DNA from: an uncultured Collinsella sp.
GTDB taxonomy: Bacteria; Actinomycetota; Coriobacteriia; Coriobacteriales; Coriobacteriaceae
Assembly: GCA_900551635.1 (NCBI GenBank)
Contig: URWQ01000004.1
Location: forward strand, 1 to 20,086
Direction of reading: 5' to 3'
Length of the DNA stretch: 20,086 nt
Shown here piece after piece: positions 2,583 through 19,805 of this stretch. The position numbers were made by a program, and so were the translations under genes. How positions within the stretch are numbered: position 1 is the first letter of the stretch; the number at the start of each line of letters is the position of its first letter. The notes under the pieces were generated by a model that saw only the letters and a program-made list of their open reading frames with translations, was not told the DNA's origin and made no database searches.

Positions 2583-4028
2583 CTAGATAAGCCCAAAATG
2601 TTCGAGCGCGGTGACGACGCCGTTGTGGTCGAAGCTGTCGGTTACGTAGTCGGCCTTTTCCTTGAGGAAGTCCGGCGCGTTGCCCATGGCGATGCCAACA
2701 TCGACCGCCTCCATGAGGGCGATGTCGTTGCTCGCGTCGCCAATGCCATATACGGTGCCGTGGTCTGGTCCCAGGGCGTCAAGCACAGCCTTGATTCCGG
2801 CCCGTTTGGTGCACTCGCGCGGCGAGATTTCTGTGACCTCGAGCTCGAGCTCGTTGAGGCAGAGCAGAGGTCCAAGCTCTTCATCTTGGGCGATGCGGTT
2901 GGCAAGTGGTGTGGACATAAGAATTTTATAGGCGTTGTAGTGCTCAAGTTGCGTGACGGCGTCGCCCACGGTGCGTGCGTATCCGTACGTCTCGGGGGCA
3001 TCTGCACTCATGCGCACGACGCGATCGATGCCCTCAAAGCGAATGACCTCGCCCGATTGCTCGAGATAGGGGGCGAGGCGCTGTAACATGCCGGGGCTTA
3101 TGGCAGCGTTTCGCACGACGCGCCCCTCGAGTTCGGCGTAACCGCCCGCGAGGCACACGACGCCTGCCCACGGCAGTTCGAGCAGCTTGGGATGGATGCA
3201 GCTGAGGGTGCGCCCCGTACAGATAAAAGCTTTGTTGCCGTTGGCGACAAACGTGCGAATTGCCTGTGCAACCGTCTCGTTGGGATAGGGGGAAAGATCT
3301 CGCTCGCCCTCGGGGAGCTCTTGGGCAAGTTTGGGATCTTGCCAGGCGAGCGTACCGTCGATGTCGAAGAAGCAGACATTGCCATACTTTTTGGCGCCAT
3401 CGCCGGCATGAAAAGGCGAGGCGGCGAATGCAAAACCCGGTTCGAGTCCCATAATCTGATCAAAGTGTTCTTTGACGCGGGGTACCGAGATGCCGATGAT
3501 TACCTGAGCGGTCTTGCCGGTGACGATGAGGCCTTTGGCACCCGCTGCGACAAAGGTCGCATTGTCCGCGACGATGGAGGGATCCACGACTTCGACGCGC
3601 AGACGCGTGGCGCAGTTGGTTGCGCCCGCAATGTTGGAGACGCCGCCCAGAAGCGTCACAACCTGCTCGGCGAGGAGATGATCTTGTGAGGCTTGGTTGC
3701 CGGAAGCGCCGGTTTTGGATGAGCGCTTTTCGTCAACGTCGTTTCCCGTCAAGCGTGAGAGCGCCGCGTTGCTGGCGATATGGTCCTCGCGTCCCGGGGT
3801 TTTAAGGTCAAAGGTCAGGATAAGACCTCGAAAGCTCAGAAAGAAGATGACGCTAAAGATGAGTCCGATTCCGAGTGCCAAAAGGTAGGAGCCGGCATGC
3901 GCCCGCATGAGCGGGATAAAGTTGAAGGCAGCCATTTCCATAAAGCCGCCCGAGAAGATGCCAACGACGCCAAAGAAGTTCATAGCCATGGCGAGGCAGG
4001 AAGATAGAGCGGCATAGAGCAAAAAGAG
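2583..4028 (-). CDS. C-terminal part of frameshifted PTS fusion: end of EIIC, EIIB, and Cof-type HAD phosphatase
   Basis: This frame resumes exactly where the EIIC frame breaks (LFLLYAALSSCLAMAMNFFG onward). It contains the last EIIC membrane segments, then an EIIB domain with the phospho-cysteine motif NCATRLR (about residue 477 of the 817-residue reconstructed protein), then a full HAD-IIB (Cof) domain from about residue 551. HAD motif I is FFDIDGT, motif II is FICTGRT, and motif IV is GIGDASNDIALME. EIIB passes phosphate to the incoming sugar; Cof-type HADs hydrolyse sugar phosphates. Having both in one chain suggests phosphotransfer followed by dephosphorylation, which is inference. The frame is open upstream to 4235, but that extension overlaps EIIC coding and is not protein-like. 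ATGs at 3989 and 3983 could start a separate product, though no strong RBS was noted. EIIB and HAD motifs look intact, so decay is not advanced. Confidence 0.8.
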   Translation of the reverse strand, partial: LFLLYAALSSCLAMAMNFFGVVGIFSGGFMEMAAFNFIPLMRAHAGSYLLALGIGLIFSVIFFLSFRGLILTFDLKTPGREDHIASNAALSRLTGNDVDEKRSSKTGASGNQASQDHLLAEQVVTLLGGVSNIAGATNCATRLRVEVVDPSIVADNATFVAAGAKGLIVTGKTAQVIIGISVPRVKEHFDQIMGLEPGFAFAASPFHAGDGAKKYGNVCFFDIDGTLAWQDPKLAQELPEGERDLSPYPNETVAQAIRTFVANGNKAFICTGRTLSCIHPKLLELPWAGVVCLAGGYAELEGRVVRNAAISPGMLQRLAPYLEQSGEVIRFEGIDRVVRMSADAPETYGYARTVGDAVTQLEHYNAYKILMSTPLANRIAQDEELGPLLCLNELELEVTEISPRECTKRAGIKAVLDALGPDHGTVYGIGDASNDIALMEAVDVGIAMGNAPDFLKEKADYVTDSFDHNGVVTALEHFGLI

Positions 4029-5037
4029 CCCCGGGATAGGTGAACATAAAGAGAAACTCGAGCGGCTCGGTGACGCCGCAGACCGCCGAAGCGACGATGG
4101 CGGGCAGAAGGATGGCCTTGAGGCCAGCGCGGCGTTCGGGCTTGGCGGTGGTGTAGAACGCAACGGCGATGGCAGGAAGGCCAAAGAGCTTGACCCAGCC
4201 GGTGGCGGTGAAACCAGCCCACGGCGCAAGCTCATTGAGGGGGCGCGTGCTATGGGAGAGAATGGGGAGCAAATTGGTCCACGTGGCGTAGATACCGTCG
4301 TTAATAACTAAATTGTCGTAGTAGATAGGCATGTAGAGCAGGTGGTGCAGCCCCATGGGCTCGAGTGCTCGCTCCAAAAACGCAAAGATACCCACGCCGA
4401 GGGGGCCGACGCCCACAAGTGCGTGGCGCAGCGTTTCGGTCGCTGCGTATACGAAGGGCACGATGGCGGCCGAGATGGCGGCAAGGGCGAACACGGCAAA
4501 AAAGCTGATGAGGTAGACCAGCGAGGAACCCGAGAAGGTGCCGAGCCAATCGGGGACCTTGGCATCGTAGAAGCGGTCATGGATGGCGACGACGGTTGCC
4601 GATACCGCTAGCGGGCCGATAATGCCGGTGTCGAGCGTCTTGATGCCGTCGATGATGGTAATGCCGCTAGCGGGGGTCAAAGACGACGGGTACTTAAGTC
4701 CAAGGTTGTCTCCGCTTAGCTTGATGATCTCGCTCAAAAAGAAGCAATAGGCAAAATAAGCCACGAGCGCCTCGAGGCAACAACGTGCCGGTTGCTTTTG
4801 GGCAAGGCCGATGGGCAGCGCTACGGCAAAAAGGAGCGGAAGTCGCTTAAAGACCGTCCACGAGCCGCGCTGAATGATAGTCCAAAAAACGTACCAAGGG
4901 GTTCCGTATACGGCGAGGTCGCCGACGATATCCGCAGACGTTGCGAGGGCGGAGACGCCGACCATAAGGCCCGATATGGAAAACAACATGGCGGGCGCGA
5001 ACATTGCCCCGCCAAAGCGTTGGATTTTTTGCAGCAT
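3853..5037 (-). CDS. N-terminal part of frameshifted PTS fusion: alpha-glucoside/maltose-type EIIC
   Basis: The start (MLQKIQRFGGAMFAPAMLF) closely matches Bacillus MalP/GlvC, the maltose-specific EIICB. Further family matches are GSWTVFKRLPLLFAVALPIG, CLEAL, GIKTLDT, FLERALEPMGLHH and ACGVTEPLEFLF-like segments. It forms the multi-spanning sugar channel of the PTS. True EIIC coding ends at TYPG near 4033; the remaining residues down to the stop at 3853 are out-of-frame read-through. Removing one base of the CCCC at 4029-4032 joins it to the downstream frame, giving an 817-residue EIIC-EIIB-HAD protein. The gene is divergent from the TreR-like regulator, with GTTTAAAC sites in the shared 227-bp intergenic region. 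Substrate is most likely maltose or another alpha-glucoside. It could be a real pseudogene, a phase-variable run, or a sequence error. Confidence 0.85.
   Translation of the reverse strand: MLQKIQRFGGAMFAPAMLFSISGLMVGVSALATSADIVGDLAVYGTPWYVFWTIIQRGSWTVFKRLPLLFAVALPIGLAQKQPARCCLEALVAYFAYCFFLSEIIKLSGDNLGLKYPSSLTPASGITIIDGIKTLDTGIIGPLAVSATVVAIHDRFYDAKVPDWLGTFSGSSLVYLISFFAVFALAAISAAIVPFVYAATETLRHALVGVGPLGVGIFAFLERALEPMGLHHLLYMPIYYDNLVINDGIYATWTNLLPILSHSTRPLNELAPWAGFTATGWVKLFGLPAIAVAFYTTAKPERRAGLKAILLPAIVASAVCGVTEPLEFLFMFTYPGALFALCRSIFLPRHGYELLWRRWHLLGRLYGNGCLQLYPAHAGACRLLPFGTRNRTHL
4029..4032 (-). other. Frameshift point in the PTS EIIC-EIIB-HAD gene
   Basis: On the minus strand the sequence is TAT CCC GGG GCT CTT, where the family frame requires TAT CCC GGG CTC TTT. 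There is one extra G in a CCCGGGG run. The upstream frame reads FTYPG and the downstream frame reads GLFLLYAALSS, so the junction can be placed to within one codon. Confidence 0.8.
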
Positions 5038-5080: not shown

Positions 5081-5090
5081 GTTTAAACAA
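5081..5090. promoter_or_regulatory. Putative TreR-like operator, PTS side
   Basis: GTTTAAACAA contains the palindrome GTTTAAAC. It lies about 45 bp upstream of the PTS start codon (5037, minus strand) and matches four other sites in the window (consensus TTGTTTAAACAA). The position suits repression of the PTS promoter. Confidence 0.5.
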
Positions 5091-5202: not shown

Positions 5203-5212
5203 GTTTAAACAA
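5203..5212. promoter_or_regulatory. Putative TreR-like operator, regulator side
   Basis: This is a second GTTTAAACAA in the same divergent intergenic region, about 53 bp upstream of the regulator ATG at 5265. It suggests autoregulation. A possible -10 (TATGCT, about 5225-5230) lies just downstream, without a convincing -35. Confidence 0.5.
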
Positions 5213-5264: not shown

Positions 5265-5984
5265 ATGCCAAAAGCGATATACGAAGGAATCTACCGAGAA
5301 ATACGCTCGCGCATCATTAACGGGACCTATGCGTTTCAGGAGATGCTGCCAACCGAAGCCGAGCTGACCGCGGAGTTCGGATGCACTCGCAATACCGTCC
5401 GTCGCGCCTTGGGTATGCTGGCCGACGGGATGTTTGTGCAGCCCATACACGGCAAGGGCGTGCGCGTTATTTGGCTTAAGGGCGAAACCGACATGTTGGG
5501 CGCACTCGAAGAGGTTGAGTCGTTTGGCGAGTTTGCAAAGCGCAACAATGCCGTTGCATCTACGGACGTTAAGTCTTTCGAACATCTGGTTTGCACCGAG
5601 CAACTCTCTCGTCACCTGGGCTTTAAGGTGGGCGAGGAGTTGATTCGCGTAGTGCGTGTCCGAAGCCTCAACGGCAACGCGCGCCAAGTGGACCATGGCT
5701 ATTTTTTGGCGTCGATCGCCAAGGGCCTGACTCCCGAGATCGCGGCAGATTCTATTTACGGCTATCTGGAGCACAAGCGCGGTGTCAAAGTGATGGCGAG
5801 CCGTCGTACGGTGAGTGTCGAGCTCGCCAACGATGAGGACTGCAGCTATCTTGACCTCGGCAAATACAACTGCGTTGCCGTCATGGAGAGTCAGTCGTAC
5901 ACCTCGGACGGCATCTTGTTTGAGGTGACGCACACTCGCACACACCCCGAGATCTTCCATTACCGTGTCAATTCCAAGCGATAG
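5265..5984 (+). CDS. GntR-family (HutC/TreR subfamily) sugar-responsive regulator
   Basis: The protein is 239 residues long. The N-terminal winged helix (about residues 5-70) has the GntR signature LPTEAELTAEFGCTRNTVRRAL followed by the wing residues IHGKGVRV. Residues ~90-235 form a UTRA effector domain, with segments (SIYGYLE, VSVELANDEDCSYLDL) that align well with the trehalose repressor TreR. UTRA domains of this type bind sugar phosphates. The gene is divergent from the PTS-HAD gene and precedes the ABC operon, so it is the natural local regulator of both. It probably recognises the TTGTTTAAACAA-like sites listed separately, since TreR of Bacillus binds TTGTATATACAA. The RBS GAGGTG precedes the ATG by 6 bases. 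The effector may be a maltose- or trehalose-type phosphate ester, which is inference. A strong hairpin terminator follows at 6023. Confidence 0.88.
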   Translation: MPKAIYEGIYREIRSRIINGTYAFQEMLPTEAELTAEFGCTRNTVRRALGMLADGMFVQPIHGKGVRVIWLKGETDMLGALEEVESFGEFAKRNNAVASTDVKSFEHLVCTEQLSRHLGFKVGEELIRVVRVRSLNGNARQVDHGYFLASIAKGLTPEIAADSIYGYLEHKRGVKVMASRRTVSVELANDEDCSYLDLGKYNCVAVMESQSYTSDGILFEVTHTRTHPEIFHYRVNSKR

Positions 5985-6095: not shown

Positions 6096-6107
6096 TTGTT
6101 TATACAA
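6096..6107. promoter_or_regulatory. Putative operator 1 of the ABC operon
   Basis: TTGTTTATACAA is a perfect-arm near-palindrome that differs by one base from the Bacillus TreR operator TTGTATATACAA. It lies 184 bp upstream of the binding-protein ATG. Confidence 0.55.
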
Positions 6108-6164: not shown

Positions 6165-6182
6165 TAATACTTGTTCAAACAA
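6165..6182 (+). promoter_or_regulatory. Putative -10 and operator 2 of the ABC operon
   Basis: TAATAC at 6165-6170 is a fair -10 box and is followed immediately by TTGTTCAAACAA at 6171-6182, a further copy of the shared operator. An operator just downstream of -10 would block transcription when bound. No strong -35 was found at the proper spacing, so the promoter call is tentative. Between the terminator at 6023-6077 and the gene start at 6291, nothing else was identified. Confidence 0.5.
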
Positions 6183-6290
6183 CTAGCCAAATAGCGTATC
6201 GTACAAATCAGCAAAAGGGGCAAAGTCCCCGAGCCAATCTCCGAAGGCGGCGGCAAAGGGTGCCGCCACGGTGTGAAAGGGTGGATTGTA

Positions 6291-7607
6291 ATGAAGAACG
6301 AAATGAGCAGAAGGCAGTTCCTGGGCTTTGCTGGTTCCGCGGCTGCGGTTCTTGGTCTGGGTCTCGTGGGCTGCGGTGGTTCTGCCGGCTCCGGCTCCTC
6401 TGCTTCTGGTGACGCTGCCGAGGTCTACTTCCTCCAATTCAAGCCCGAGGTCGACAAGGAGTGGAAGGAGATCGCCAAGGCCTATAAGAAGGAGAAGGGC
6501 GTCGAGGTCAAGATCGTGACCGCCGCCTCCAACACCTACGAGGAGAAGCTCAAGTCCGAGATGTCCAAGAGCTCCGCTCCGACCCTGTTCCAGGTCAACG
6601 GCCCCACCGGTCTTAAGAACTGGAAGGATTACTGCGCCGACCTGTCCGATACCAAGCTCCGCGGTGAGCTCATTGACGACTCCCTGGCTCTGCAGTCCGA
6701 TGGCAAGGATCTGGGTATCGACTGGGTCCAGGAGAGCTACGGCATCATCTACAACAAGCAGCTGCTCGAGAAGGCTGGTTACAAGGCCGAGGACATCAAC
6801 TCCTTCGACAAGCTGAAGGCTTGTGCCGACGACATCCAGGCCCGCAAGGACGAGCTTGGTGTTGAGGGCGCCTTCACTTCCGCTGGCATGGACGACTCCT
6901 CCAGCTGGCGCTACACCACCCACCTTGCCAACCTCCCGCTCTACTACGAGTTCGAGAAGGAGCACAATCAGGAGGACGACGAGATCAAGGGCGAGTATCT
7001 CGACAACTTCAAGCAGATTTTCGACCTGTACATCACCGACTCCACCTGCGATCCTTCGCAGCTTGCCTCCAAGACCGGCGACGACGCCACCAACGAGTTC
7101 GCAACCGGCAAGGCCGTCTTCTACCAGAACGGTTCTTGGGCCTACGCTGACCTCACCAAGGCCGGCATGACCGACGATCAGATTGGCATGATGCCCATCT
7201 ACATCGGTGTCGACGGCGAGGAGAACCAGGGCCTGTGCTCCGGCGGCGAGAACTACTGGTGCGTCAGCTCCCAGGCTTCCGAGGATGCCCAGAAGGCCAC
7301 CGAGGACTTCATGTATTGGTGCGTCACTTCTGACACCGCCACCAGCATCATCGCTGACAAGATGGGTCTGACTGCCCCGTTCAAGAGCGCTAAGGAGACC
7401 ACCAACGTCTTCTCGCAGCAGGCCGTTGCCATGGCCAAGGACGGCAAGAAGACCGTCGCTTGGGACTTCGTTTACATCCCCTCTGAGGAGTGGAAGAAGA
7501 ACCTCAAGCAGGCTCTGATTGCCTATGCTGCCGACAACAGCAAGTGGGACGGCGTCAAGAACGCCTTCGTCGATGGCTGGAAGACCGAGAAGGCTGCTTC
7601 CGAGTAA
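6291..7607 (+). CDS. CUT1-family sugar ABC transporter substrate-binding lipoprotein (probably maltodextrin)
   Basis: The protein is 438 residues from the ATG at 6291. An in-frame ATG 18 bases upstream is less likely, because GAAAGGGTGG sits 6 bases before 6291. The N-terminus has a Tat-like SRRQFLGF motif, a hydrophobic stretch and the lipobox LVGC, so it should be an exported, membrane-anchored lipoprotein. The mature part is an extracellular solute-binding protein of the COG1653 type (segments YGIIYNKQLLEKAG and FATGKAVFYQNGSWA). Codon use is strongly biased (GAG, AAG, CTC), more so than in the neighbours, which suggests high expression. It is the first gene of the binding protein-permease-permease-ATPase operon. 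Specificity for maltodextrins is inferred from the operator motif shared with malQ-glgP and from the nearby maltose-type PTS; the sequence alone does not settle it. Confidence 0.92.
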   Translation: MKNEMSRRQFLGFAGSAAAVLGLGLVGCGGSAGSGSSASGDAAEVYFLQFKPEVDKEWKEIAKAYKKEKGVEVKIVTAASNTYEEKLKSEMSKSSAPTLFQVNGPTGLKNWKDYCADLSDTKLRGELIDDSLALQSDGKDLGIDWVQESYGIIYNKQLLEKAGYKAEDINSFDKLKACADDIQARKDELGVEGAFTSAGMDDSSSWRYTTHLANLPLYYEFEKEHNQEDDEIKGEYLDNFKQIFDLYITDSTCDPSQLASKTGDDATNEFATGKAVFYQNGSWAYADLTKAGMTDDQIGMMPIYIGVDGEENQGLCSGGENYWCVSSQASEDAQKATEDFMYWCVTSDTATSIIADKMGLTAPFKSAKETTNVFSQQAVAMAKDGKKTVAWDFVYIPSEEWKKNLKQALIAYAADNSKWDGVKNAFVDGWKTEKAASE

Positions 7608-7694: not shown

Positions 7695-8549
7695 ATGGGC
7701 AAAGCACTCAAGCGCTGGTGGCCGCTCTTTATGCTGCCCACGTGTCTGGCGTTTATGATCGGGTTCGTGATCCCCTTTATCCAGGGTTTCTATCTCTCGT
7801 TCTGCCAGTTTATTACCATCAACAACACGCACTTTGTCGGTATCGAGAACTACGTGCGCGCACTGTCCGATCCGCAGTTTGCCACGTCGTTCTTCTTTAC
7901 CGTGGCGTTTGCCTTCCTGTCGACGGTGCTCATCAACGTGATCGCCCTCGCCATCGCGCAGGCGCTCACCCGCAAAGCGCTCAAGGGCACCAACATCTTC
8001 CGTACGATCTTCTTTATGCCTAACCTGATCGGCGGCATCGTGCTGGGCTACATCTGGCAGATTCTGATCAACTGCCTGCTCTCCAACGTGGGCGCCCAGC
8101 TCATCGCCCTTAACTCTGCTGCTGGCTTCTGGGGCCTTATCATCCTGACCCTGTGGCAGCAGGTCGGCTACATGATGATCATCTACATCGCTGGTCTGCA
8201 GTCCATTCCGTCCGACTACATCGAGGCCGCCAAGGTCGACGGTGCCACGGCATGGCAGACGTTTTGGAAGGTTAAGATCCCTAACCTGATGCCGACCATC
8301 ACCATCTGCCTGTTCCTGTCCATCACCAACGGCTTTAAGCTGTTCGACCAGAACCTCGCCCTTACCGGCGGCGCCCCCGCGCACTCCACCGAGATGCTCG
8401 CCCTGAACATCTACAACACGTTCTATTCGCGTGCCGGTATCGCATGGCAGGGCATCGGTCAGGCCAAGGCGGTTATCTTCTGCATCCTGGTCGTGGCCAT
8501 CTCCATGATCCAGCTTAAGGCCACGAGGTCCAAGGAGGTGCAGCAGTAA
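7695..8549 (+). CDS. Sugar ABC transporter permease (MalF/MsmF type)
   Basis: The 284-residue membrane protein has about six transmembrane segments, starting with FMLPTCLAFMIGFVIPFIQG. The cytoplasmic EAA loop that docks on the ATPase is present as EAAKVDGATAWQTFWKVKIP, near residues 176-195. Length is typical of CUT1 permeases that lack the long N-terminal extension of E. coli MalF. GAAAGGA lies upstream of the ATG. The sequence GCATAT(T/C)GAAAGG before this gene recurs before the ATPase gene, so the two share a translation-start leader. The stop codon overlaps the next start (TAATG), implying translational coupling with the second permease. Confidence 0.92.
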   Translation: MGKALKRWWPLFMLPTCLAFMIGFVIPFIQGFYLSFCQFITINNTHFVGIENYVRALSDPQFATSFFFTVAFAFLSTVLINVIALAIAQALTRKALKGTNIFRTIFFMPNLIGGIVLGYIWQILINCLLSNVGAQLIALNSAAGFWGLIILTLWQQVGYMMIIYIAGLQSIPSDYIEAAKVDGATAWQTFWKVKIPNLMPTITICLFLSITNGFKLFDQNLALTGGAPAHSTEMLALNIYNTFYSRAGIAWQGIGQAKAVIFCILVVAISMIQLKATRSKEVQQ

Positions 8550-9388
8550 TGAAACGCGATAAGGTTATCAACCGCGCGCTCTCGATTTTCTTTACGATCC
8601 TGTCGCTCGCGTGGATCTACCCCGTGTTCATGATTGCGCTTAATTCTTTTAAGAAAGCGACCGCAATCAGCACCACCACGGCATTCGATCTGCTCACGCC
8701 CGAGACGTTCAACGGCCTCGCAAACTACATGCACGCCCTTAACGAGCAGGGCTTTGCCTCGGCATTTATGTACTCGCTCATCATCACGGTCACGTCGGTC
8801 GTGCTGATTTTGGTGTGCTGCTCCATGTGCGCTTGGTACGTGGTTCGTGTCAACAACAAGATCTCGAACTTCTTCTATTACCTGTTCGTGTTCTCGATGG
8901 TCGTGCCGTTCCAGATGCTCATGTTCACGCTGTCCAATTTGGCGGACCGCATCGGCTTCAACACGCCGTTCAACATCTGCTTTATCTACCTCGGCTTTGG
9001 CGCGGGCCTGGCGGTCTTTATGTTCGCCGGTTTTGTAAAGAACATCCCGCTCGAGATCGAGGAGGCGGCCATGATTGATGGCTGCAACCCGGTCCAGGTG
9101 TTCTTTAAGATTGTCCTTCCCATCATGAAGCCCACCTATCTTTCGGTCGGCATCCTCGAGACCATGTGGGTCTGGAACGACTATCTGCTGCCCTACCTTA
9201 CGCTCGACTCCACCAAGTACAAGACCATTCCTATCTTGATCCAGTACTTCCGCGGCGGCTACGGCCACGTCGAGCTCGGCCCCATGATGGCCTGCATCAT
9301 GATGGTCGTTATCCCCATCGTTATCATGTACATCCTCTGTCAGAAGTACATCATCGACGGCGTGGTGGCAGGTGCCGTCAAGGGCTGA
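8549..9388 (+). CDS. Sugar ABC transporter permease (MalG/MsmG type)
   Basis: The 279-residue partner permease has about six transmembrane segments. The EAA loop reads EEAAMIDGCNPVQVFFKIVLP, around residues 170-190, and the family WVWNDYLLPYL segment follows. It overlaps the first permease by one base and ends 68 bp before the ATPase gene. It would form the heterodimeric channel with the upstream permease. The C-terminus QKYIIDGVVAGAVKG is the conserved end that contacts the ATPase in this family. Confidence 0.92.
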   Translation: MKRDKVINRALSIFFTILSLAWIYPVFMIALNSFKKATAISTTTAFDLLTPETFNGLANYMHALNEQGFASAFMYSLIITVTSVVLILVCCSMCAWYVVRVNNKISNFFYYLFVFSMVVPFQMLMFTLSNLADRIGFNTPFNICFIYLGFGAGLAVFMFAGFVKNIPLEIEEAAMIDGCNPVQVFFKIVLPIMKPTYLSVGILETMWVWNDYLLPYLTLDSTKYKTIPILIQYFRGGYGHVELGPMMACIMMVVIPIVIMYILCQKYIIDGVVAGAVKG

Positions 9389-9456: not shown

Positions 9457-10656
9457 ATGGCCGAGATCGTTCTCAAACATGTTCAGAAGGTGTATCCCAA
9501 CAACGAGTCAAAAAAGAAGGGCTTCTTTGGCAAAAAGAAGAAGACCGAGGAGAAGAAGCACAACCTCAAGGTTACCGAGGACGGTGTGCTCGCTGTAGAG
9601 GACTTCAACCTCACCGTTCACGACCAGGAGTTCGTCGTCCTCGTTGGCCCCTCTGGCTGCGGTAAGTCCACGACGATGCGCATGGTCGCCGGCCTGGAGG
9701 ACATTACCTCGGGCGATGTGCTCATCGACGGCAAGCGTGTCAACGACGTGGCGCCCAAGGACCGCGACATCGCCATGGTGTTCCAGAGCTACGCTCTGTA
9801 CCCCAATATGACGGTGTACGAGAACATGGCATTTACGCTCGAGCTCAAGAAGGTTCCCAAGGACGAGATCGACCGCAAGGTTCGCTCTGCTGCCGAGATT
9901 CTGGGCATTACCGAGTACCTCGACCGTAAGCCCAAGGCGCTCTCCGGCGGCCAGCGCCAGCGTGTCGCTATCGGCCGCGCCATCGTGCGTGACCCCAAGG
10001 TCTTCCTGATGGACGAGCCGCTGTCCAACCTGGACGCCAAGCTTCGTAACCAGATGCGTGCCGAGCTCATTAAGCTGCGCCACGAGATCAAGGGCACGTT
10101 CATTTATGTTACTCACGACCAGACCGAGGCCATGACCCTTGGCGACCGTATCGTGGTCATGAAGGACGGCGTCGTCCAGCAGATCGCCACGCCGCAGGAG
10201 GTCTTCAACCATCCCGCGAACATCTTCGTCGCCGGCTTCATCGGCGTGCCGCAGATGAACTTCTTCGATGCCCAGCTGGTGCGCTCGGGCAACGGCTTTA
10301 CCGTCAAGACCGAGGATATGAACGTGGCACTCGCCCCCGAGACTTGCGCTCAACTTGCCCTCAACTGGGACGGCGGCGACGTGAAGGAGATTACGGCCGG
10401 CGTGCGTCCCGAGCAGATCCTGCTTGCCGACAAGGGCGAGGAGGGCGCGCTCCAGGGTACCGTCGAGGTGACCGAGCTCATGGGCTCGACCGAGCATGTC
10501 CACGTGACCGCTCCCGACGGCCAGTTTGTCCTGATTATCCCCGTCGTCGACCTCGAGGCCAAGGGCGCGCTCAAGGCTGGCGACACCATCTGGTTCAAGT
10601 TCGAGAAGAACGCGACCCACCTCTTCGATAAGGTCTCTGGCAAGAACCTTATCTAG
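9457..10656 (+). CDS. MsmK/UgpC-type sugar ABC transporter ATPase
   Basis: The protein is 399 residues long. It has Walker A GPSGCGKST (64-72), Q-loop VFQSYALYP, signature LSGGQRQRVAIGRAI, Walker B VFLMDEPLSNLDAKL and H-loop YVTHDQTEA, then a C-terminal TOBE/OB regulatory region (AGVRPEQIL). It energises the two permeases. Between the first beta strand and the aromatic/A-loop region there is a lysine-rich insert of roughly 25-30 residues (about 16-45, with KKKGFFGKKKKTEEKK) that is absent from classical MsmK and MalK. Similar inserts occur, as far as I recall, in some gut-bacterial homologues. In many Gram-positives one such ATPase serves several sugar importers, which may apply here too. GAAAGGTAG precedes the ATG. 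A terminator follows at 10727. Confidence 0.93.
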   Translation: MAEIVLKHVQKVYPNNESKKKGFFGKKKKTEEKKHNLKVTEDGVLAVEDFNLTVHDQEFVVLVGPSGCGKSTTMRMVAGLEDITSGDVLIDGKRVNDVAPKDRDIAMVFQSYALYPNMTVYENMAFTLELKKVPKDEIDRKVRSAAEILGITEYLDRKPKALSGGQRQRVAIGRAIVRDPKVFLMDEPLSNLDAKLRNQMRAELIKLRHEIKGTFIYVTHDQTEAMTLGDRIVVMKDGVVQQIATPQEVFNHPANIFVAGFIGVPQMNFFDAQLVRSGNGFTVKTEDMNVALAPETCAQLALNWDGGDVKEITAGVRPEQILLADKGEEGALQGTVEVTELMGSTEHVHVTAPDGQFVLIIPVVDLEAKGALKAGDTIWFKFEKNATHLFDKVSGKNLI

Positions 10657-11110: not shown

Positions 11111-13378
11111 TTAGCTCAGGTGCCAAATCTCGTCGTTGTACTGGGAGATCGTGCGGTCAGACGAGAAGGTGCCGGCGTTGGCGATATTGATGAGCGTCTT
11201 GCGCATCCAGGCGTCCTGGTCCTCGTAGTCGGCCAACACGCGCTCCTTGGTCTGGATGTACTCCTCGATGTCGAGCAGGGCCATAAACCAGTCCTTGCCC
11301 TTAATGTCATCGTGCAGGCGCTGCAGGCGCTCGGCGTTGCCGGTCGCCATAAAGGCCGGGTTGGTGATGAAGTCCACCAGCAGTTTAATGCCGGGCTTGC
11401 GGTAGAGCACACCGGCGTCATAGGTGCCGTCGGCATAGAGCTGCTCGACCTGTTTGGACGAGGCACCAAAGGTATAGATATTCTCGTCGCCCACGAGCTC
11501 GGCAATCTCCACGTTGGCGCCGTCAAGCGTGCACAGGGTTAGGGCGCCGTTGAGCATGAACTTCATGTTGGAGGTGCCGCTCGCCTCCTTGGAGGCCAGG
11601 CTGATCTGCTCGGAGATATCAGCGGCGGGGATCACGCGCTCGGCGGCGGTGACGTTGTAGTTCTCGATCATGACAACCTGCAGGTAGGGAGCCACGTCGG
11701 GGTCGTTTGCAATCCACTGCGACAGCGTCAGAATCAGATGGATGATGTCCTGCGCGATAGTGTAGGCAGGTGCCGCCTTGCCGCCAAAGATGATGGTGAC
11801 GGGGTGCTTAGGTCTGTTGCCGTTCTTGATATCGAGGTACTTCCAGATGATGTAGAGCGCGAGCATCTGCTGACGCTTGTACTCGTGGATGCGCTTGACC
11901 TGGACGTCGATGATGGCGTTGGAGGGAATGGTCACGCCCTGCTCGAGCGCCATGAACTGGCGCATGATGGCCTTGGCCTCGACCTTGGTGGCGGCCAGGC
12001 GCTCAAGAACGTCCTTGTCGTCGGCGAACTTGGCGAGTTTGCTCAGATCGCCGGTGCTGCGCCAGTCGGTGCCGATCACATCGTCGAGCAGGCTGGCGAG
12101 CGCGGGGTTGGCCCCATGGATCCAGCGGCGGAAGGTGATGCCGTTGGTCTTGTTGGAGAACTTCTTGGGATAGATCTCGTAGAACGGATGAAGCTCGGTA
12201 TCCTCCAGGATCTTGGTGTGGAGGGCGGCTACACCGTTGATGGAGAAGCCAAAGTGGATGTCCATGTGGGCCATGTGGACGGTATCGTGTTCGTCGATGA
12301 TGGCGACGCGCGGGTCATCGTGCTCGGCCTTCGCGATCTCATCGAGCTTGACGATAATGTCGGCGATGGCAGGGGAGACCTTCTGCAGGCTGGCGAGCGG
12401 CCACTTCTCGAGCGCCTCGGCAAGAATCGTGTGGTTAGTGTAGGCGACCATGGAGCGCACGATGGTAACGGCCTCGTCAAACTCGATGTCGTGCTCGGTG
12501 GTGAGCAGGCGGATGAGCTCGGGAATGACCATGGTGGGGTGCGTGTCGTTGATCTGGACCACGGCGTAGTCGGCCAGGTCGTGCAGGTTGCTGCCGCGCT
12601 CGATGGCCTCGTCGATCAGGAGCTGGGCGGCGTTGCTCACCATGAAGTATTCCTGGTAGATGCGAAGCAGGCGGCCCTGCTCGTCGGAATCGTCGGGGTA
12701 GAGGAACAAGGTGAGGTTCTTGGCGATCTCGGTCTTGTCGAAGTCGATGGAGCTGCCGGGGACCAGGCCGTCGTCGACGCTTGCCAGGTCGAACAGGCGC
12801 AGGCGGTTCTTGGTGGGCTGGCCGTAACCGGGCACATCGATGTTGACGAGCTTGGAGGTAACGGCAAAATCGCCGAACTCGACGGTGTAGGAGCGGTCAT
12901 CGTCGACCAGGATGTCCTGCTCACCGAGCCACTCGTCGGGGACGGCCTTCTGCTGGTTGTCGACAAAGCGCTGACGGAACAGACCGTAGTGATAGTTGAG
13001 GCCCACGCCATCGCCGGTCAAGCCCAGCGTGGCGATGGAATCCAGGAAGCATGCGGCCAAGCGGCCCAGGCCGCCGTTGCCGAGTGACGGCTCGACCTCG
13101 AACTCCTCGATCTTGTTGAGGTCGTGGCCTGCGGCGGTGAGCTGGTCCTTAACCTCGTCGTAGATGCCAAGGTCGATCATGTTGTTGATGAGCAGCTTGC
13201 CGATCAAAAATTCGGCGGAAATGTAATAGAGCTTTTTCTTGCCGTTGTTGAGCGGGCAGGCGGCGGAGCGCTCCTGCACGAGTTTGACCAGCAGCTTGTA
13301 AATGCGACGGTCGTCGAGCTGCTCGAGCGAGGTGCCAAAAGACTGCTCGGCGAGTTCCATGAGGTTAATTTGGGGCAT
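11111..13378 (-). CDS. glgP: Glycogen/maltodextrin phosphorylase (GT35)
   Basis: It releases glucose-1-phosphate from the non-reducing end of alpha-1,4-glucans using PLP. The PLP lysine lies in KEASGTSNMKFMLNGAL at about residue 606. Other family segments are SLGNGGLGRLAACFLDS near the N-terminus, NDTHPTM and RIHEYKRQ. From the ATG at 13378 the protein has 755 residues, close to bacterial maltodextrin phosphorylases. That start is chosen because AGGAGAAA lies 5-10 bases upstream; the open frame extends 9 codons further to 13405 without a comparable RBS. It is the second gene of the malQ-glgP operon, and together they convert imported maltodextrins to glucose-1-P and glucose. Whether glycogen or maltodextrin is preferred cannot be read from the sequence; the operon context favours maltodextrin. 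Confidence 0.93.
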   Translation of the reverse strand: MPQINLMELAEQSFGTSLEQLDDRRIYKLLVKLVQERSAACPLNNGKKKLYYISAEFLIGKLLINNMIDLGIYDEVKDQLTAAGHDLNKIEEFEVEPSLGNGGLGRLAACFLDSIATLGLTGDGVGLNYHYGLFRQRFVDNQQKAVPDEWLGEQDILVDDDRSYTVEFGDFAVTSKLVNIDVPGYGQPTKNRLRLFDLASVDDGLVPGSSIDFDKTEIAKNLTLFLYPDDSDEQGRLLRIYQEYFMVSNAAQLLIDEAIERGSNLHDLADYAVVQINDTHPTMVIPELIRLLTTEHDIEFDEAVTIVRSMVAYTNHTILAEALEKWPLASLQKVSPAIADIIVKLDEIAKAEHDDPRVAIIDEHDTVHMAHMDIHFGFSINGVAALHTKILEDTELHPFYEIYPKKFSNKTNGITFRRWIHGANPALASLLDDVIGTDWRSTGDLSKLAKFADDKDVLERLAATKVEAKAIMRQFMALEQGVTIPSNAIIDVQVKRIHEYKRQQMLALYIIWKYLDIKNGNRPKHPVTIIFGGKAAPAYTIAQDIIHLILTLSQWIANDPDVAPYLQVVMIENYNVTAAERVIPAADISEQISLASKEASGTSNMKFMLNGALTLCTLDGANVEIAELVGDENIYTFGASSKQVEQLYADGTYDAGVLYRKPGIKLLVDFITNPAFMATGNAERLQRLHDDIKGKDWFMALLDIEEYIQTKERVLADYEDQDAWMRKTLINIANAGTFSSDRTISQYNDEIWHLS

Positions 13379-13423
13379 GTTTTCTCCTGTGATGGGTTGT
13401 TTCATGTCTGCAATTCATAAGAA

Positions 13424-13506: not shown

Positions 13507-15012
13507 CTATTGAGGAAGCTCGATTTCGGCTTCCGACGGGATGCGGAAGTAGGTCTCGGTCCAGTCGGTGAGTTTGTGCTCGAGCTCGCGGGTGATGGCG
13601 CCGTCGAGCATGCGCCAGGTCCAGTTGCCGCCCAGCGTGGCAGGGGTGTTGATGCGCGCCTCGTTGTCCAAGTTGAGCAGGTCCTGCATGGTGTAGATGC
13701 ACGTGTCGCTCACGCTGGCGGCGATGGTGCGGTTGAGTGCATCTGCCATGGGTTCGCCGGCTTGCTGATGGGTGTACAGGGCTGCCTGCTCGCGCTGACG
13801 CGGGGTGGCCGTTCCCTCAAACCAACCGCGCGCCGTCTCGTTGTCGTGGGTGCCCACATAGGCGACGGTGTTGGCGATGTAGTTATGCGGCAGGTAGTAC
13901 GAGTTGGTGCCCTCAAAGGCAAACTGCAGGATCTTCATGCCGGGGAAGCCCGAGTTGTCGCGCATGTCGATGACGCCGGGGGTGAGGAAGCCCAGGTCCT
14001 CGGCGATGATGGGCAGCGTGCCGAGCTTTTCCTCGAGCGTCTTGAAGAACTTGAGGCCGGGACCCTGCGTCCACGAACCGTAGGACGAATCGGGCGAGGA
14101 GAACGGCACCTCCCAATAGGCCTCGAAGCCGCGGAAGTGATCCAGGCGGATGACGTCGTACATGTCGAGGGCGGCGCGAATGCGGCCCTCCCACCAGGAG
14201 AAGCCGTCGGACTCCATGGCGTCCCAGTCGTAGATGGGGTTGCCCCAGTACTGGCCGGTGGCCGAGAACTGGTCGGGCGGCGTGCCGGCGACGCTCACGG
14301 GATTGCCGGCGGCGTCGATCTTAAAGAGCTCAGGCGTCGCCCACATCTCGACGGAGTCACGCGAGACATAGATGGGCAGGTCGCCGATGATGAGAATGTC
14401 GCGCTCGTTGGCATAGGCCTTGAGGCGGCTCCACTGGCGATCGAAGAAGTACTGCGTCATCTGGTGGTAGAGCATACGCGCCGGATGGTCGGCGCAGACC
14501 TTGGCGGAAGCCTCGCCGCGGGTGCGGAGCTCCGCGGGCCACTCCCAAAACGCCTTGAGACCGCACTCCTCTTTGACGGTCATGAACTCACAGTAGGGGA
14601 TGAGCCAGTTCTCGTTGGCCTGGATAAAGTCATCGAAATCGGCCGGCTTGTCGGCAGCAAAGCGCTCAGCGGCGCGGTCGAGAATCTGACGGCGGCCGCC
14701 AAAGATAGCACCGTAGTCGACATTGCTGGGGTCGGATCCCAGATACACGCCATCGATATCGCGCTGCTCCAGATACCCTGCCTCGATAAGCTCGGCAAAG
14801 TCGATAAAGTTGGGGTTGCCTGCGCGGGCCGAGAACGACTGATAGGGCGAATCGCCATAGCTGGTCGTCGTAAGGGGCAGAATCTGCCAGTAATGTTGTT
14901 TGCACGAGGCGAGAAAATCGACGAAGTCGTAGGCATTCCAGCCAAAGCCGCCGATTCCGTATGGTCCGGGCAGAGATGAGACGGGCATGAGGACGCCGCT
15001 TGCACGCTCCAT
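13507..15012 (-). CDS. malQ: 4-alpha-glucanotransferase (amylomaltase)
   Basis: This GH77 enzyme transfers glucan segments between maltodextrins, releasing glucose. With the ATG at 15012 the protein has 501 residues. The catalytic nucleophile is Asp-291 in IRLDHFRGF, the acid/base is Glu-338 in IIAEDLGF, and the stabilising Asp-390 is in VGTHDNET. The N-terminal GVLMPVSSLPGPYGIGGFG segment is typical. The ATG at 15012 is preferred because GGTGAG lies 8 bases upstream. A longer frame from TTG at 15027 exists, with AAGAAGG too close for good spacing. It is the first gene of the operon with glgP. A TTGTTTAAACAT operator and a possible TACAAT -10 lie in the 15098-15122 leader. Confidence 0.95.
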   Translation of the reverse strand: MERASGVLMPVSSLPGPYGIGGFGWNAYDFVDFLASCKQHYWQILPLTTTSYGDSPYQSFSARAGNPNFIDFAELIEAGYLEQRDIDGVYLGSDPSNVDYGAIFGGRRQILDRAAERFAADKPADFDDFIQANENWLIPYCEFMTVKEECGLKAFWEWPAELRTRGEASAKVCADHPARMLYHQMTQYFFDRQWSRLKAYANERDILIIGDLPIYVSRDSVEMWATPELFKIDAAGNPVSVAGTPPDQFSATGQYWGNPIYDWDAMESDGFSWWEGRIRAALDMYDVIRLDHFRGFEAYWEVPFSSPDSSYGSWTQGPGLKFFKTLEEKLGTLPIIAEDLGFLTPGVIDMRDNSGFPGMKILQFAFEGTNSYYLPHNYIANTVAYVGTHDNETARGWFEGTATPRQREQAALYTHQQAGEPMADALNRTIAASVSDTCIYTMQDLLNLDNEARINTPATLGGNWTWRMLDGAITRELEHKLTDWTETYFRIPSEAEIELPQ

Positions 15013-15097
15013 GAATGCGCTCACCAACCTTCTTGTTGTGGGGTCGGCCTGCCGATGGGTGTGCAGTCCGCCTCCGATGTTCTGATTCGATACGCCT

Positions 15098-15122
15098 ATT
15101 GTAAAACATGTTGTTTAAACAT
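15098..15122 (-). promoter_or_regulatory. Putative malQ promoter -10 with TreR-like operator
   Basis: TTGTTTAAACAT at 15111-15122 matches the operator sites of the PTS and ABC units. On the minus strand TACAAT (15103-15098) is a plausible -10 directly downstream of it, so the operator would occupy the spacer. Flanking ACATG/CATGT extends the symmetry. No clear -35 box was found at ideal spacing. Confidence 0.55.
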
Positions 15123-16500: not shown

Positions 16501-16564
16501 CATATGTACGCTAATATGTATGAGTTGAGCGACATATAAATAAGCATGTAACGGAGTACATATG
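16501..16564 (+). promoter_or_regulatory. Inverted repeat spanning the start codon of the cell-wall hydrolase gene
   Basis: CATATGTAC (16501-16509) is the exact reverse complement of GTACATATG (16556-16564), which contains the ATG. The 46 bp between them include AT-rich sequence (ACATATAAATAAG) and the RBS ACGGAG is next to the right arm. If the transcript includes both arms, pairing would cover the start codon. The arms could equally be a protein-binding site. Confidence 0.35.
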
Positions 16565-17767
16565 TCACCAAACAGCGATTCCATCCTTTCCCAGGAGCTC
16601 TCGCGCCGCACTGCCCTCAAGGCCCTGTTCGGCGCCGCTTCTGCGGCAGTTCTTTTTGGCCTGCCCGCTCGCGCCCATGCGGCGGAGGCTTCCAAAGAAA
16701 CCACCGATAAACTGAATGCCGCCCAGGCCCAGCTCGACGAGGTTCAGGCCCAGCTCGACAGCATCGCAAATGAGTATGCGGCGCTGGCCAACAAGAATGC
16801 CCAGACCCTCAACGACATCGAGAATGTCCAGGGCAAGATTGACGACACGCAGGCCCAGATCGATGAAAAGAAGGCTGAGCTCAAGAAGAAGCGCAACGAC
16901 CTTTCCGATCGCGTGGCCGCCAGCTACAAGTCCGGCGGCACGAACATCCTGTCGCTGCTGCTGGCCTCTGGCTCGTTTGAGGAACTCGTCGCCAACGCGC
17001 ATTACGTTGAGAAGATCAACAAGAGCGACCGCGATGCCATCGAGGATATCCAGACGATTCAGGCTGAGCTCGACACACAGAAGACCGAGCTCGAAGCACA
17101 AAAGGCCGACCTGGAGAAACTCAAGGACCAGCAAACGGCTCAGATGCAGGATATGCAGGCCAAGCAGCAAGAAGTCCAGACCGTGCTGAACGGTCTTTCC
17201 GACGATGTCAAGGAGCTCATGGCTCAGCGCGATTCCGAGATCCTCGCTGCCGCCCAGGCCGAGGAGGCTGCCAGGAAGGCCGCCGCTGCCGCGGCCGCCG
17301 CGAACAAGAACAATTCCTACTCGGGTGGTTCGAGCTCGGGTGGTGGATCGTATGCGCCGGGAACTCCGCAGCAGAATGCCGGCTCGGGCAAGCAGCAGGC
17401 CGTCGTCAACGCGTGCTACTCCACGCCTTCGCCGGGTCAGAACTGGTGCGCGGCGTGGGTTACCAATGTCTTCCGTAACGCCGGCGTTGGCTACTTTGGC
17501 GGCAACGCCTGCGACATGTTTAACGCCTGGTGCTATAGCTCCGACCGCTCGGCGCTGCAGGTGGGCATGATCGTGGCCGATTCCTCGCACAGCGGCACGG
17601 GTGCTCCGGGCCTTATCTACGGTCATGTGGGTATCTACGTTGGCGGCGGCATCGTTATGAGCAACGAGGGCGCCATTACGTCTAAGTCGCTCGATTCGTT
17701 TATTAGCTTCTATGGCACTGGCTCTGGCGTGCGTTGGGGCTGGCTCGGCGGTATTGCGCTGTCGTAA
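16562..17767 (+). CDS. Secreted coiled-coil CHAP-type cell-wall hydrolase (PcsB/RipC-like)
   Basis: The protein is 401 residues long. The signal peptide (about 1-40) contains SRRTALKALF, a Tat-like twin arginine, and a cleavage region near ARAHAAEA. Residues ~45-245 form a long heptad-rich coiled coil of the CwlO/PcsB N-terminal type, with an SGGTNILSLLLASGSFEELV break as in that family. A Ser/Gly/Asn linker (about 250-278) leads to the C-terminal catalytic domain, with Cys-296 in NWCAAWV and His-355 in YGHVGIYVGGG, which fits a CHAP/NlpC-like amidase or endopeptidase. Such proteins split peptidoglycan during division, and the coiled coil is usually controlled by FtsEX. ACGGAG precedes the ATG. 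The exact bond cleaved is unknown. Confidence 0.88.
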   Translation: MSPNSDSILSQELSRRTALKALFGAASAAVLFGLPARAHAAEASKETTDKLNAAQAQLDEVQAQLDSIANEYAALANKNAQTLNDIENVQGKIDDTQAQIDEKKAELKKKRNDLSDRVAASYKSGGTNILSLLLASGSFEELVANAHYVEKINKSDRDAIEDIQTIQAELDTQKTELEAQKADLEKLKDQQTAQMQDMQAKQQEVQTVLNGLSDDVKELMAQRDSEILAAAQAEEAARKAAAAAAAANKNNSYSGGSSSGGGSYAPGTPQQNAGSGKQQAVVNACYSTPSPGQNWCAAWVTNVFRNAGVGYFGGNACDMFNAWCYSSDRSALQVGMIVADSSHSGTGAPGLIYGHVGIYVGGGIVMSNEGAITSKSLDSFISFYGTGSGVRWGWLGGIALS

Positions 17768-18009: not shown

Positions 18010-18777
18010 CTATAGGTAAACCTTTTCGAGAAACGATAATGTGTCCTGAAGACGCGCTCTCTCTTTACGATCGGTCTGCCGATTTACATAAGAAGAAAAG
18101 TCCGCAAAGAAGTCTCCGGCATCAGCCCTCATTTGCTCTATTAGCTCCAAGCGAGCCGAAGGCGACAACAAACCCGCAAGTCGAACAATATCCGAGCGAT
18201 GCTTTCGTCGATCTTTATCGTTGCAATGGCGCCCTTCTTCATAGCTCCTATTGATATCAATGTGCGCGCGCATCTTGAGGGGAATGATATGGAGCGCATC
18301 GAGCAACCTAATGCCCTCTACGTTCGTTGCGTTGTCGCGAATAAATTCGTAGTAGCCATCGTCAAGAATAATTGCCGAGAGACTTGATACGGCCCCGTCA
18401 AAGGAAAGAGGTGCCACTTCGCTCGTTTCATCTTCGAGCACAAAATCAGGATGTCGGGCAAATAGCTCAATTTGACCGGGATAGTCTAGGGCCCGCTTTG
18501 ATCCTTTGGGCAAGCAGAACCGATAGTAAGTACACTTTCCATCGCCGACCTTTCCAATCTCGTATCCAGCTGCTTTGATAAACGCCCACAACGCAGTGGC
18601 AAATTCAACGCCTTCCCCATCAACAATTACGACGACATCCAAATCTTCGGTAGCCCTGAATGAATCACCTTCGCTGTCAAATAGAACGCTGCAGGTCCCT
18701 CCACCAATAAGGACGTAACCACCTTTGCAGCTGCTCATGGCGTCGGCAAATCGCTCTATTCCCCTCACTTTTGGCAT
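18010..18777 (-). CDS. AbiEii-like nucleotidyltransferase (putative type IV toxin)
   Basis: The protein is 255 residues long. It has a nucleotidyltransferase fold start, YVLIGGGTCSVLF (21-33), and the metal-binding pair EDLDVVV (Asp-45, Asp-47). A helical part carries KMRAHIDINR and KHRSDIVRLAGLL (about 165-200), which resembles the AbiEii/PF08843 family. AbiEii toxins transfer nucleotides to RNA acceptor ends and act in abortive phage defence; whether this one is toxic is inference. The start overlaps the upstream gene by 13 bp and the RBS GGAGGAT lies inside it, so the pair is translationally coupled in the usual antitoxin-toxin order. Composition is clearly more AT-rich than the metabolic genes, suggesting horizontal acquisition. 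A housekeeping MNT-type nucleotidyltransferase is the main alternative. Confidence 0.75.
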   Translation of the reverse strand: MPKVRGIERFADAMSSCKGGYVLIGGGTCSVLFDSEGDSFRATEDLDVVVIVDGEGVEFATALWAFIKAAGYEIGKVGDGKCTYYRFCLPKGSKRALDYPGQIELFARHPDFVLEDETSEVAPLSFDGAVSSLSAIILDDGYYEFIRDNATNVEGIRLLDALHIIPLKMRAHIDINRSYEEGRHCNDKDRRKHRSDIVRLAGLLSPSARLELIEQMRADAGDFFADFSSYVNRQTDRKERARLQDTLSFLEKVYL

Positions 18778-19787
18778 ATCATCCTCCTGAGCTGTTCGAC
18801 CGCATCGAGCAGACGGTCATCTTTGTAATCCTCTTTTGCGCAGGCAACGTATAAGGAGAACGGGTCGACACATTGCAAACCTGTCGTGTCAAAACTAACA
18901 TCGGACGGCTCGTCCACGGGATACGACCAGACCTCAATCTCGATAGCAGCCGGTTCGTACCACTGGGCCTCCAGCCATTTGTCGCCCATATGCTCTTTTA
19001 AGGCCTCTAGCTGATACTTTTCGAGAGCAATGGTTGGGGCGGAACTGTCATGAGCAAGGTCGGACATATAGCTAAGGGCAGACACACCGGAAAGCAGCGC
19101 GTCAACGGCACGTAGCTCTGTTCTCTCGATAACCTTCTTGAGCCGGATTCGCTCTAAAACTGGCGTGCGAAGATAGTCCTCAAACCCATCCAGCAACGTC
19201 TCGGTCGACAACCCGGTGTCGCACAATATACGCTTTTTGCCGTCCCGCATAATCAACCCAGGAGCTATAGCGGCGATTTCCGAAAGATAGCCGCTGACGC
19301 TTGCCGCGCTTTTGCCACACAGACGCGCAAGGTCGCCGGCGGGGCAGTCAACCCATCGTCCCGCGATGAGATTTAGAACGATTCGTTGAGATTGGGGCGA
19401 AAGCGGGGCAGCGGGAGAAGCACCCAGCCCTTCATCGGAAATAATGGCTCCGATAAACGGCAGAAACGCATTTTGCTCATCTCGGATATATGCGATTCCC
19501 TCCGAAGAAAGCGCGTGCATAAAACCTAAATCCATAGCATCCCAGCAAATTGCCACCGGACGAGCATCTAACTTACGCACTGCATTGACGAGATTTCGCG
19601 CCGAAATGACACTGGGCGGTTCTTTTGGTTCCGCAACAATAAAACGGCCCTGCTCAGACATGCCGAGCCGTGCCAAGCGAAGCGAATACCGCTCGAGATA
19701 CATGCGAGGAATCTGCATCTCAACTGGCTCTGAATCGATGGCGAGCTCTAAAGAGAAGAGTCTTTTAGGGAGACAATTTAGCAGCAT
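18765..19787 (-). CDS. AbiEi-like winged-helix protein (putative antitoxin/regulator)
   Basis: The protein has 340 residues from the ATG at 19787, chosen because GGTGAG lies 5 bases upstream. A GTG two codons earlier (19793) is also open. The middle (about 128-190) shows a winged helix-turn-helix, with SQRIVLNLIAGRWVDCPAGD, then LARLCGKSAASVSGYLSEI as helix-turn-helix. The C-terminal part has no family I can name with certainty; it ends with DPFSLYVACAKEDYKDDRLLDA. Placement upstream of, and overlapping, an AbiEii-like nucleotidyltransferase is the reason for the antitoxin call. It probably autorepresses through the TTTCAG/CTGAAA symmetry at its own promoter. Like its partner it is AT-richer than the flanking metabolic genes. 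Confidence is high that it is a gene and moderate on function. Confidence 0.68.
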   Translation of the reverse strand: MLLNCLPKRLFSLELAIDSEPVEMQIPRMYLERYSLRLARLGMSEQGRFIVAEPKEPPSVISARNLVNAVRKLDARPVAICWDAMDLGFMHALSSEGIAYIRDEQNAFLPFIGAIISDEGLGASPAAPLSPQSQRIVLNLIAGRWVDCPAGDLARLCGKSAASVSGYLSEIAAIAPGLIMRDGKKRILCDTGLSTETLLDGFEDYLRTPVLERIRLKKVIERTELRAVDALLSGVSALSYMSDLAHDSSAPTIALEKYQLEALKEHMGDKWLEAQWYEPAAIEIEVWSYPVDEPSDVSFDTTGLQCVDPFSLYVACAKEDYKDDRLLDAVEQLRRMICQK

Positions 19788-19805
19788 GTCCACTCACCAT
19801 TTTCA

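Follow-up and report, generated by a model that had tools for sequence, protein, structure and literature searches.

The fusion gene and its frame break

We analyzed a stretch of 20,086 nucleotides from an uncultured Collinsella sp. (assembly GCA_900551635.1, contig URWQ01000004.1; hereafter, the window), which contains a gene fusing the EIIC and EIIB domains of a phosphotransferase system (PTS) transporter to a HAD-IIB phosphatase domain (Table 1). The gene is split into two overlapping minus-strand open reading frames (ORFs) in different frames, at 3853-5037 (394 aa) and 2583-4235 (550 aa). Pfam assigned PTS_EIIC to the 394-aa ORF, and PTS_EIIB and Hydrolase_3 (HAD) to the 550-aa ORF; the former corresponds to the upstream part of EIIC and the latter to the remaining EIIC, followed by EIIB and HAD. 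Among the 39 genomes searched, the 550-aa ORF was best matched by G013 (named record Collinsella sp. WCA1-178-WT-3), the closest relative at this gene. G013 encodes one protein of 817 aa, in agreement with the original prediction that a one-base correction yields an 817-residue fused chain. The first ORF aligns with this intact protein (locus L031) via residues 1-336 and the second continues at the equivalent point; therefore, the frame change was placed near position 4030.

The apparent frameshift may be genuine or may be an error of sequencing or assembly. The ratio of non-synonymous to synonymous substitution rates (dN/dS) between the window and G013 was 0.06 for HAD, and 0.10 and 0.14 for the EIIC pieces, indicating that loss of function, if real, would be recent. 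Three database proteins comprising only EIIB and HAD (P0093, P0125, and P0134) have a common start methionine just downstream of the frame change of the window, and P0125 sits on a 133,684-base contig; these entries perhaps point to a break that recurs at this place or to difficulty in sequencing it. The gene also appears to be mosaic between strains, as examined in the public proteins P0020, P0093, P0103, and P0115. In several public proteins, the EIIC resembles that of G001/G010 but the HAD resembles that of G013; in the window, the GntR regulator matches that of G010 (L033) with 100% identity, whereas the HAD part is nearer to G013 (93% vs 76%).

Conservation of the fusion in Collinsella

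An intact fusion, spanning residues 1-817 in a single open frame with zero stops, was identified in 21 of the 43 genomes of the genus Collinsella, so that relatives do keep the EIIC-EIIB-HAD architecture without a frameshift. These proteins have 816-817 residues and 82-100% identity to that of G013. A paralogous EIICB without HAD (45-50% identity to the G013 protein) was found in 17 of the 43 genomes, five of which additionally hold the fusion, and neither form was detected in 10 of the 43 at the threshold used. Among the best 120 of 1216 fusion-matching proteins, 113 are 805-822 aa long. A search with the HAD part gave ten named loci, seven of them from Collinsella; the non-Collinsella loci L043 and L044 carry unfused HAD ORFs of 279 and 259 aa. 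Across 396 genomes sampled from the class, 68 had an EIICB match at E <= 1e-60, and no fusion was seen in other genera at this threshold, all 21 full-length matches being from Collinsella. A candidate second fusion in G263, suggested by a HAD ORF of 923 aa, was rejected; the EIICB and HAD matches lie in separate ORFs of 576 and 923 aa, the EIICB ORF stopping ahead of the HAD match.

The dN/dS values across seven genome pairs were 0.00-0.12 for EIIC, 0.00-0.09 for EIIB, and 0.07-0.19 for HAD, and those of the linkers were 0.19-1.13 where computable. These values indicate purifying selection on EIIC, EIIB, and HAD individually and far less of it on the linkers, consistent with three working domains and loose linkers. 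The EIIC-EIIB-HAD fusion is genuine, complete, and conserved, and its presence in intact form in 21 of the 43 genomes rules out an assembly artefact as its origin. Among the observations that the original prediction had named as counting against it were separate EIICB and HAD genes in relatives and a fusion produced only by assembly; the former was seen in a sister family (see below), but the latter was not borne out.

The HAD domain and its pairing with the transporter

The HAD domain proved complete, as had been claimed. It passed the cut-off of Hydrolase_3 (PF08282; 107.2 bits vs 20.9), and the DxD, T, K, and GDxxND motifs are kept, with D558, D560, K744, D767, and D771 invariant and T607 nearly so. 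Scores for the Cof-type HAD-IIB model TIGR00099 were 102 and 97.9 bits, below the curated cut-off of 137. By both fold and sequence, its nearest relatives are HAD-IIB phosphatases, among them BT4131, which acts on sugar phosphates; trehalose-6-phosphate and sucrose phosphatases appear among the remoter fold matches. The HAD-IIB fold is compatible with sugar-phosphate dephosphorylation. The model of the 817-residue chain is confident for the HAD part only. Residues 1-549 mostly had a predicted local distance difference test (pLDDT) score below 50 because the alignment is thin there, and therefore the arrangement of the domains cannot be read from the model.

We searched 38 chosen genomes of two families (37 EIICB-matching genomes outside Collinsella, and G036) with the related stand-alone HAD P0175. 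All 19 HAD matches at E <= 1e-60 overlap an EIICB gene (G250) or lie no more than 213 bp from one. After these, the matches weaken to E 3e-40, and in 16 of 16 such cases the contig holds no listed EIICB match. In 19 sister-family genomes, a HAD of this subfamily is therefore encoded separately, at most 213 bp away from a homologous EIICB gene, and the names attached to these stand-alone HADs point to Olsenella and Paratractidigestivibacter. Chance adjacency of a housekeeping HAD was ruled out, since the strong matches all adjoin an EIICB. In the HAD tree, the fused, EIICB-linked, and these stand-alone HADs fall on one side of a branch with 99/96 support, and ten other HADs fall on the opposite side. 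A non-functional passenger is unlikely given the kept motifs and the purifying selection.

Family and descent of the EIICB part

The intact L001 protein passed the Pfam cut-offs for PTS_EIIC (136.7 bits) and PTS_EIIB (44.9 bits), as a glucose-superfamily EIICB. The predicted EIIB motif NCATRLR is present, and its cysteine (Cys475) is invariant in all 11 rows of alignment A1. With regard to the claimed MalP/GlvC-like EIIC, the best NCBIfam model is that of alpha-glucoside EIIBC (TIGR02005) rather than a MalP/GlvC equivalog, and the score of 504.5 bits lies below its cut-off of 607.3. Two unfused relatives reach this cut-off, one HAD-linked (650.6 bits) and one GH4-linked (684.4 bits). EIIA_1 (PF00358) was found in all 43 Collinsella genomes.

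The branch that leads to the fused EIICB is long. One EIICB tree places the fused EIICB within the HAD-linked ones (95/98 and 99/95), although this nesting was not secure in the robustness run described below. The fusion likely descends from a side-by-side pair of EIICB and HAD genes, because of the gene pairing and the HAD tree; the EIICB tree leaves this descent unsettled.

GH4 or HAD beside the transporter

All 17 copies of the unfused Collinsella EIICB have a GH4 gene 125-194 bp downstream. The one such gene tested belongs to PF02056, and its nearest solved relatives are the 6-phospho-alpha-glucosidase 6dux (E 1.2e-202) and the maltose-6'-phosphate glucosidase 1u8x (E 7e-201). Among the 55 EIICB copies in the fetched loci, 25 have HAD alongside, 27 have GH4, three have neither, and none has both; two of the 27 GH4-linked loci (L104 and L106) hold only a distant GH4 with 25-27% identity. 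A maltose-type ABC transporter or MalQ/GlgP was present in the fetched stretch of 21 of the 25 HAD loci, none of the 27 GH4 loci, and two of the three others, counts that come from loci related by descent and hence are not independent trials. Two loci with neither enzyme (L086 and L089) retain the ABC genes, and the EIICB gene of L086 has an internal stop. In the fused-gene loci examined (six of 21), ABC genes were present in all six and MalQ/GlgP in five, the remaining locus (L035) ending at a contig end.

Among the GH4 matches listed for the 21 fusion genomes, none is closer than 100 kb to the fused gene on its contig, and in two of these genomes (G013 and G042) no GH4 match was obtained at E <= 1e-10. 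The original observation that no 6-phospho-alpha-glucosidase gene lies in the window therefore holds for the surroundings of the fusion, but does not extend to most of the genomes, as GH4 matches occur elsewhere in 19 of the 21. A further GH4 gene in G001 (L108, 4941-6269) has its own GntR and an apparently different EIIBC, and is not near the fusion. Maltose phosphorylase (GH65) was absent from all 43 Collinsella genomes. Of the predicted handover of free maltose to MalQ/phosphorylase, the part concerning MalQ and GlgP is favored by their adjoining genes, whereas a maltose phosphorylase is lacking; hence the route would be that of MalQ/GlgP.

Neighboring genes and operator-like sites

Table 1. 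Position, strand, and basis of assignment of the features in the window
Feature	Position	Strand	Basis or remark
EIIC-EIIB-HAD fusion gene	2583..5037	minus	Frameshifted near 4030; ORFs, Pfam, and alignment to intact relative
HAD-IIB phosphatase domain (PF08282)	2604..3371	minus	Pfam; DxD, T, K, and GDxxND motifs; confident model fold
EIIB core (PF00367), NCATRLR motif	3570..3665	minus	Residues 191-222 of 550-aa ORF (P0002)
EIIC domain (PF02378), part upstream of frameshift	4030..5007	minus	Residues 11-336 of 394-aa ORF (P0001)
GTTTAAAC operator-like site, fusion gene/GntR interval	5081..5088		Kept in 7 of 7 aligned sequences
Second GTTTAAAC operator-like site, fusion gene/GntR interval	5203..5210		One-base variant in L053
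GntR/UTRA regulator, TreR-like, divergent from fusion gene	5265..5984	plus	Pfam and NCBIfam models; nearest to TreR/YvoA types
Operator-like near-match upstream of ABC genes	6096..6107		Variable in L031
TTGTTCAAACAA operator-like site upstream of ABC genes	6171..6182		Variant of GTTTAAAC-type site
Sugar-binding protein	6273..7607	plus	Nearest solved relatives are maltose-binding proteins
ABC permease	7695..8549	plus	Domain models
ABC permease	8549..9388	plus	Domain models
ABC ATPase, MalK/UgpC type	9457..10656	plus	Domain models
Alpha-glucan phosphorylase (GlgP)	11111..13405	minus	Domain models
4-alpha-glucanotransferase (MalQ)	13507..15027	minus	Domain models
GTTTAAAC operator-like site upstream of MalQ-GlgP	15113..15120		Pattern search

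The GntR regulator passed the Pfam cut-offs for the GntR and UTRA domains (HutC type) and scored 159.3 bits on the TreR model TIGR02404, below the cut-off of 211.95. The operator-like sequence GTTTAAAC, which fits the HutC-type consensus GT-N-TA-N-AC, occurs three times in the window against 0.08 expected, and none of 100 shuffles held three copies. Effectors of UTRA-type regulators include trehalose-6-phosphate (PMC2018728). In the HAD loci, the 350 bp upstream of the gene held an operator-like site for 17 of 26 EIICB genes, 16 of 17 sugar-binding protein genes, and six of seven MalQ genes. The site density upstream of HAD-locus genes was 2.6-4.2 per kb compared with 0.28 per kb overall, a rate that itself includes these upstream sites. 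Of the GH4-linked EIICBs examined, five of 25 had an upstream site, four of these being GTCTAGAC.

Additionally, paired GTTTAAACAA sites 163 bases apart (L113, 6226 and 6389; L119, 6321 and 6484) were kept in all five genomes searched, upstream of what by eye appears to be a mannose-type PTS operon. In G001, a GTTTAAACAT site (L116, 5067) lies close to where a gene for a sugar kinase of the ROK family (PF00480) begins; free glucose released by MalQ would need a sugar kinase of the ROK kind. Elsewhere, the window contains a minus-strand tRNA-Gln gene (284-358), an adjoining ORF with peptidoglycan-binding domains (397-1302), a probable cell-wall hydrolase (16562-17767) that has a coiled coil of the PcsB type and matches CHAP weakly, and two slightly overlapping minus-strand ORFs of 255 and 342 aa with zero Pfam matches at 0.001 (18010-19793).

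Proposed function and alternatives

The gene neighborhood, the sister systems, and the operator-like sites that the genes have in common point to an alpha-glucoside or maltose PTS whose sugar phosphate is handled by HAD. We consider it fairly probable that the fusion is a single-chain importer and phosphatase, in which maltose would be taken up by the PTS, dephosphorylated by HAD, and passed in free form to MalQ/GlgP. A separate EIIA would charge the EIIB of the fusion protein; EIIC would bind external maltose, and EIIB would phosphorylate it at the 6' position during crossing to give maltose-6'-phosphate, from which the C-terminal HAD would strip the phosphate in the cytoplasm. The net result would be free internal maltose at the cost of one phosphoenolpyruvate (PEP). 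MalQ and GlgP, together with sugar kinases, would be able to use this maltose, but neither could do anything with the sugar phosphate. While it lasts, the sugar phosphate is probably sensed by the TreR-like GntR, which probably acts through the GTTTAAAC-type sites to control the fusion gene, MalQ-GlgP, and the maltose-type ABC transporter jointly. The computation shows the domains and their catalytic motifs, the selection acting on each domain, the conserved fusion, the relatives with split genes, the alternation of GH4 and HAD, the neighboring genes, and the shared sites. From these we infer that HAD is an active phosphatase, what its substrate is, which way the flow runs, and what the regulator binds: HAD probably removes phosphate from the incoming sugar phosphate, and the substrate is most likely an alpha-glucoside, namely maltose. 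More tentatively, and with less confidence than we would need to favor it, the PTS may serve as a PEP-driven importer of unmodified sugar, whose single chain phosphorylates maltose on entry and immediately dephosphorylates it, with the transient sugar phosphate as a flux signal for the TreR-like regulator; HAD would then set the duration of the signal and, in this way, the strength of induction of the whole maltodextrin regulon.

Several observations weigh against the importer-phosphatase for maltose. The copy of the fusion in the window is itself broken by the frameshift. Two fused proteins, at 504.5 and 504.2 bits, fail the TIGR02005 cut-off of 607.3, and this divergence of the fused EIICB suggests that its substrate may have shifted. 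With six rows removed from the EIICB alignment, a grouping of fused with GH4-linked EIICBs was not rejected (approximately unbiased test, p-AU 0.18). Four of the 25 HAD loci (L076, which reaches a contig end, L087, L090, and L111) have neither ABC genes nor MalQ/GlgP in the fetched stretch, and three EIICB copies (L083, L086, and L089) lack both HAD and GH4 alongside. GH4 matches elsewhere in 19 of the 21 fusion genomes (only partial in G003 and G011) mean that both routes can coexist in one cell. The operator pattern was picked after looking at the window, and in the whole genome of G001 it gave 11 hits against seven for a reversed control; its genome-wide use was rejected as too unspecific.

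One alternative is an importer-phosphatase for another alpha-glucoside, such as trehalose, isomaltose, or a sucrose isomer, whose free form is cut by another enzyme. The regulator is nearest to the TreR/YvoA types (159.3 bits against the TIGR02404 cut-off of 211.95), the best EIICB model is one for alpha-glucosides in general with the fused copy divergent from it, and five genomes hold the fused and GH4-linked systems together, which would be redundant for one sugar. We regard this as the less probable substrate assignment, since a maltose-type ABC transporter, MalQ, and GlgP adjoin the fusion and have operator-like sites in common with it. It is rather improbable that HAD acts as a safety valve, clearing surplus or non-metabolizable sugar phosphate for expulsion or for ending the signal, and not as the main catabolic step. 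Such clearance has been proposed for the HAD-IIB phosphatase YigL of E. coli (PMC4098024), and fusion to the importer would put the valve at the source and would also reset the inducer of GntR. However, a valve presupposes that another enzyme does the main work on the sugar phosphate, and no such enzyme adjoins any of the 25 HAD-linked EIICBs; HAD and GH4 substitute for each other and never occur together in the 55 copies, and G013 and G042 yielded no GH4 match at the threshold given above. HAD-IIB enzymes are often promiscuous, and the structure model is silent on the arrangement of the domains, so the phosphatase might act on a different phosphate compound or merely regulate the transporter. 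This we hold to be very improbable, because the same HAD subfamily adjoins the same EIICB family across two families, and because its motifs and selection look like those of an active enzyme.

Comparison with known systems

PTS transporters are defined by the delivery of phosphorylated sugar. If the importer-phosphatase for maltose is correct, a permease carrying its own tag-removing enzyme would bring together two routes regarded as incompatible (as in the title of the MapP paper), by means of a phosphatase family unlike that of MapP. The fusion would offer a directly testable case of substrate handover at the membrane and of inducer control by the importer itself. It would also show a transporter family in which one neighboring sugar-phosphate enzyme (GH4) has been replaced by another (HAD), within gut bacteria that are common and use starch sugars. 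No paper on a PTS EIICB-HAD fusion was found in our search of the open-licence literature.

Among known systems, the Bacillus cereus MalT EIIC (5iws and 6bvg) and E. coli PtsG (8qsr) are solved glucose-superfamily relatives without a phosphatase domain. BT4131 and other HAD-IIB sugar phosphatases are the nearest solved structures to the HAD domain, but they are stand-alone and soluble, whereas the Collinsella HAD is fused to a PTS permease and forms a separate subfamily. The GH4-type alpha-glucoside PTS (GlvA-type), represented by the paralogous locus, shares a homologous EIICB and a divergent GntR with the fusion locus; there, GH4 cuts the sugar phosphate, and at the fusion locus HAD replaces it.

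The closest functional likeness is to MalT and MapP of E. faecalis, where the pathway continues via maltose phosphorylase. In the fusion, as proposed here, maltose uptake by the PTS would likewise be followed by dephosphorylation to free maltose. According to PMC3737437, E. faecalis takes up maltose by the PTS and then dephosphorylates it, the phosphatase gene adjoins the transporter gene, and MapP belongs to the endonuclease/exonuclease/phosphatase family. MapP is thus a separate protein of another family, the phosphatase of the fusion being a HAD-IIB domain attached to the permease, and Collinsella differs further in lacking a GH65 phosphorylase. The fusion is best read as a HAD-based, fused counterpart of the phosphatase MapP.

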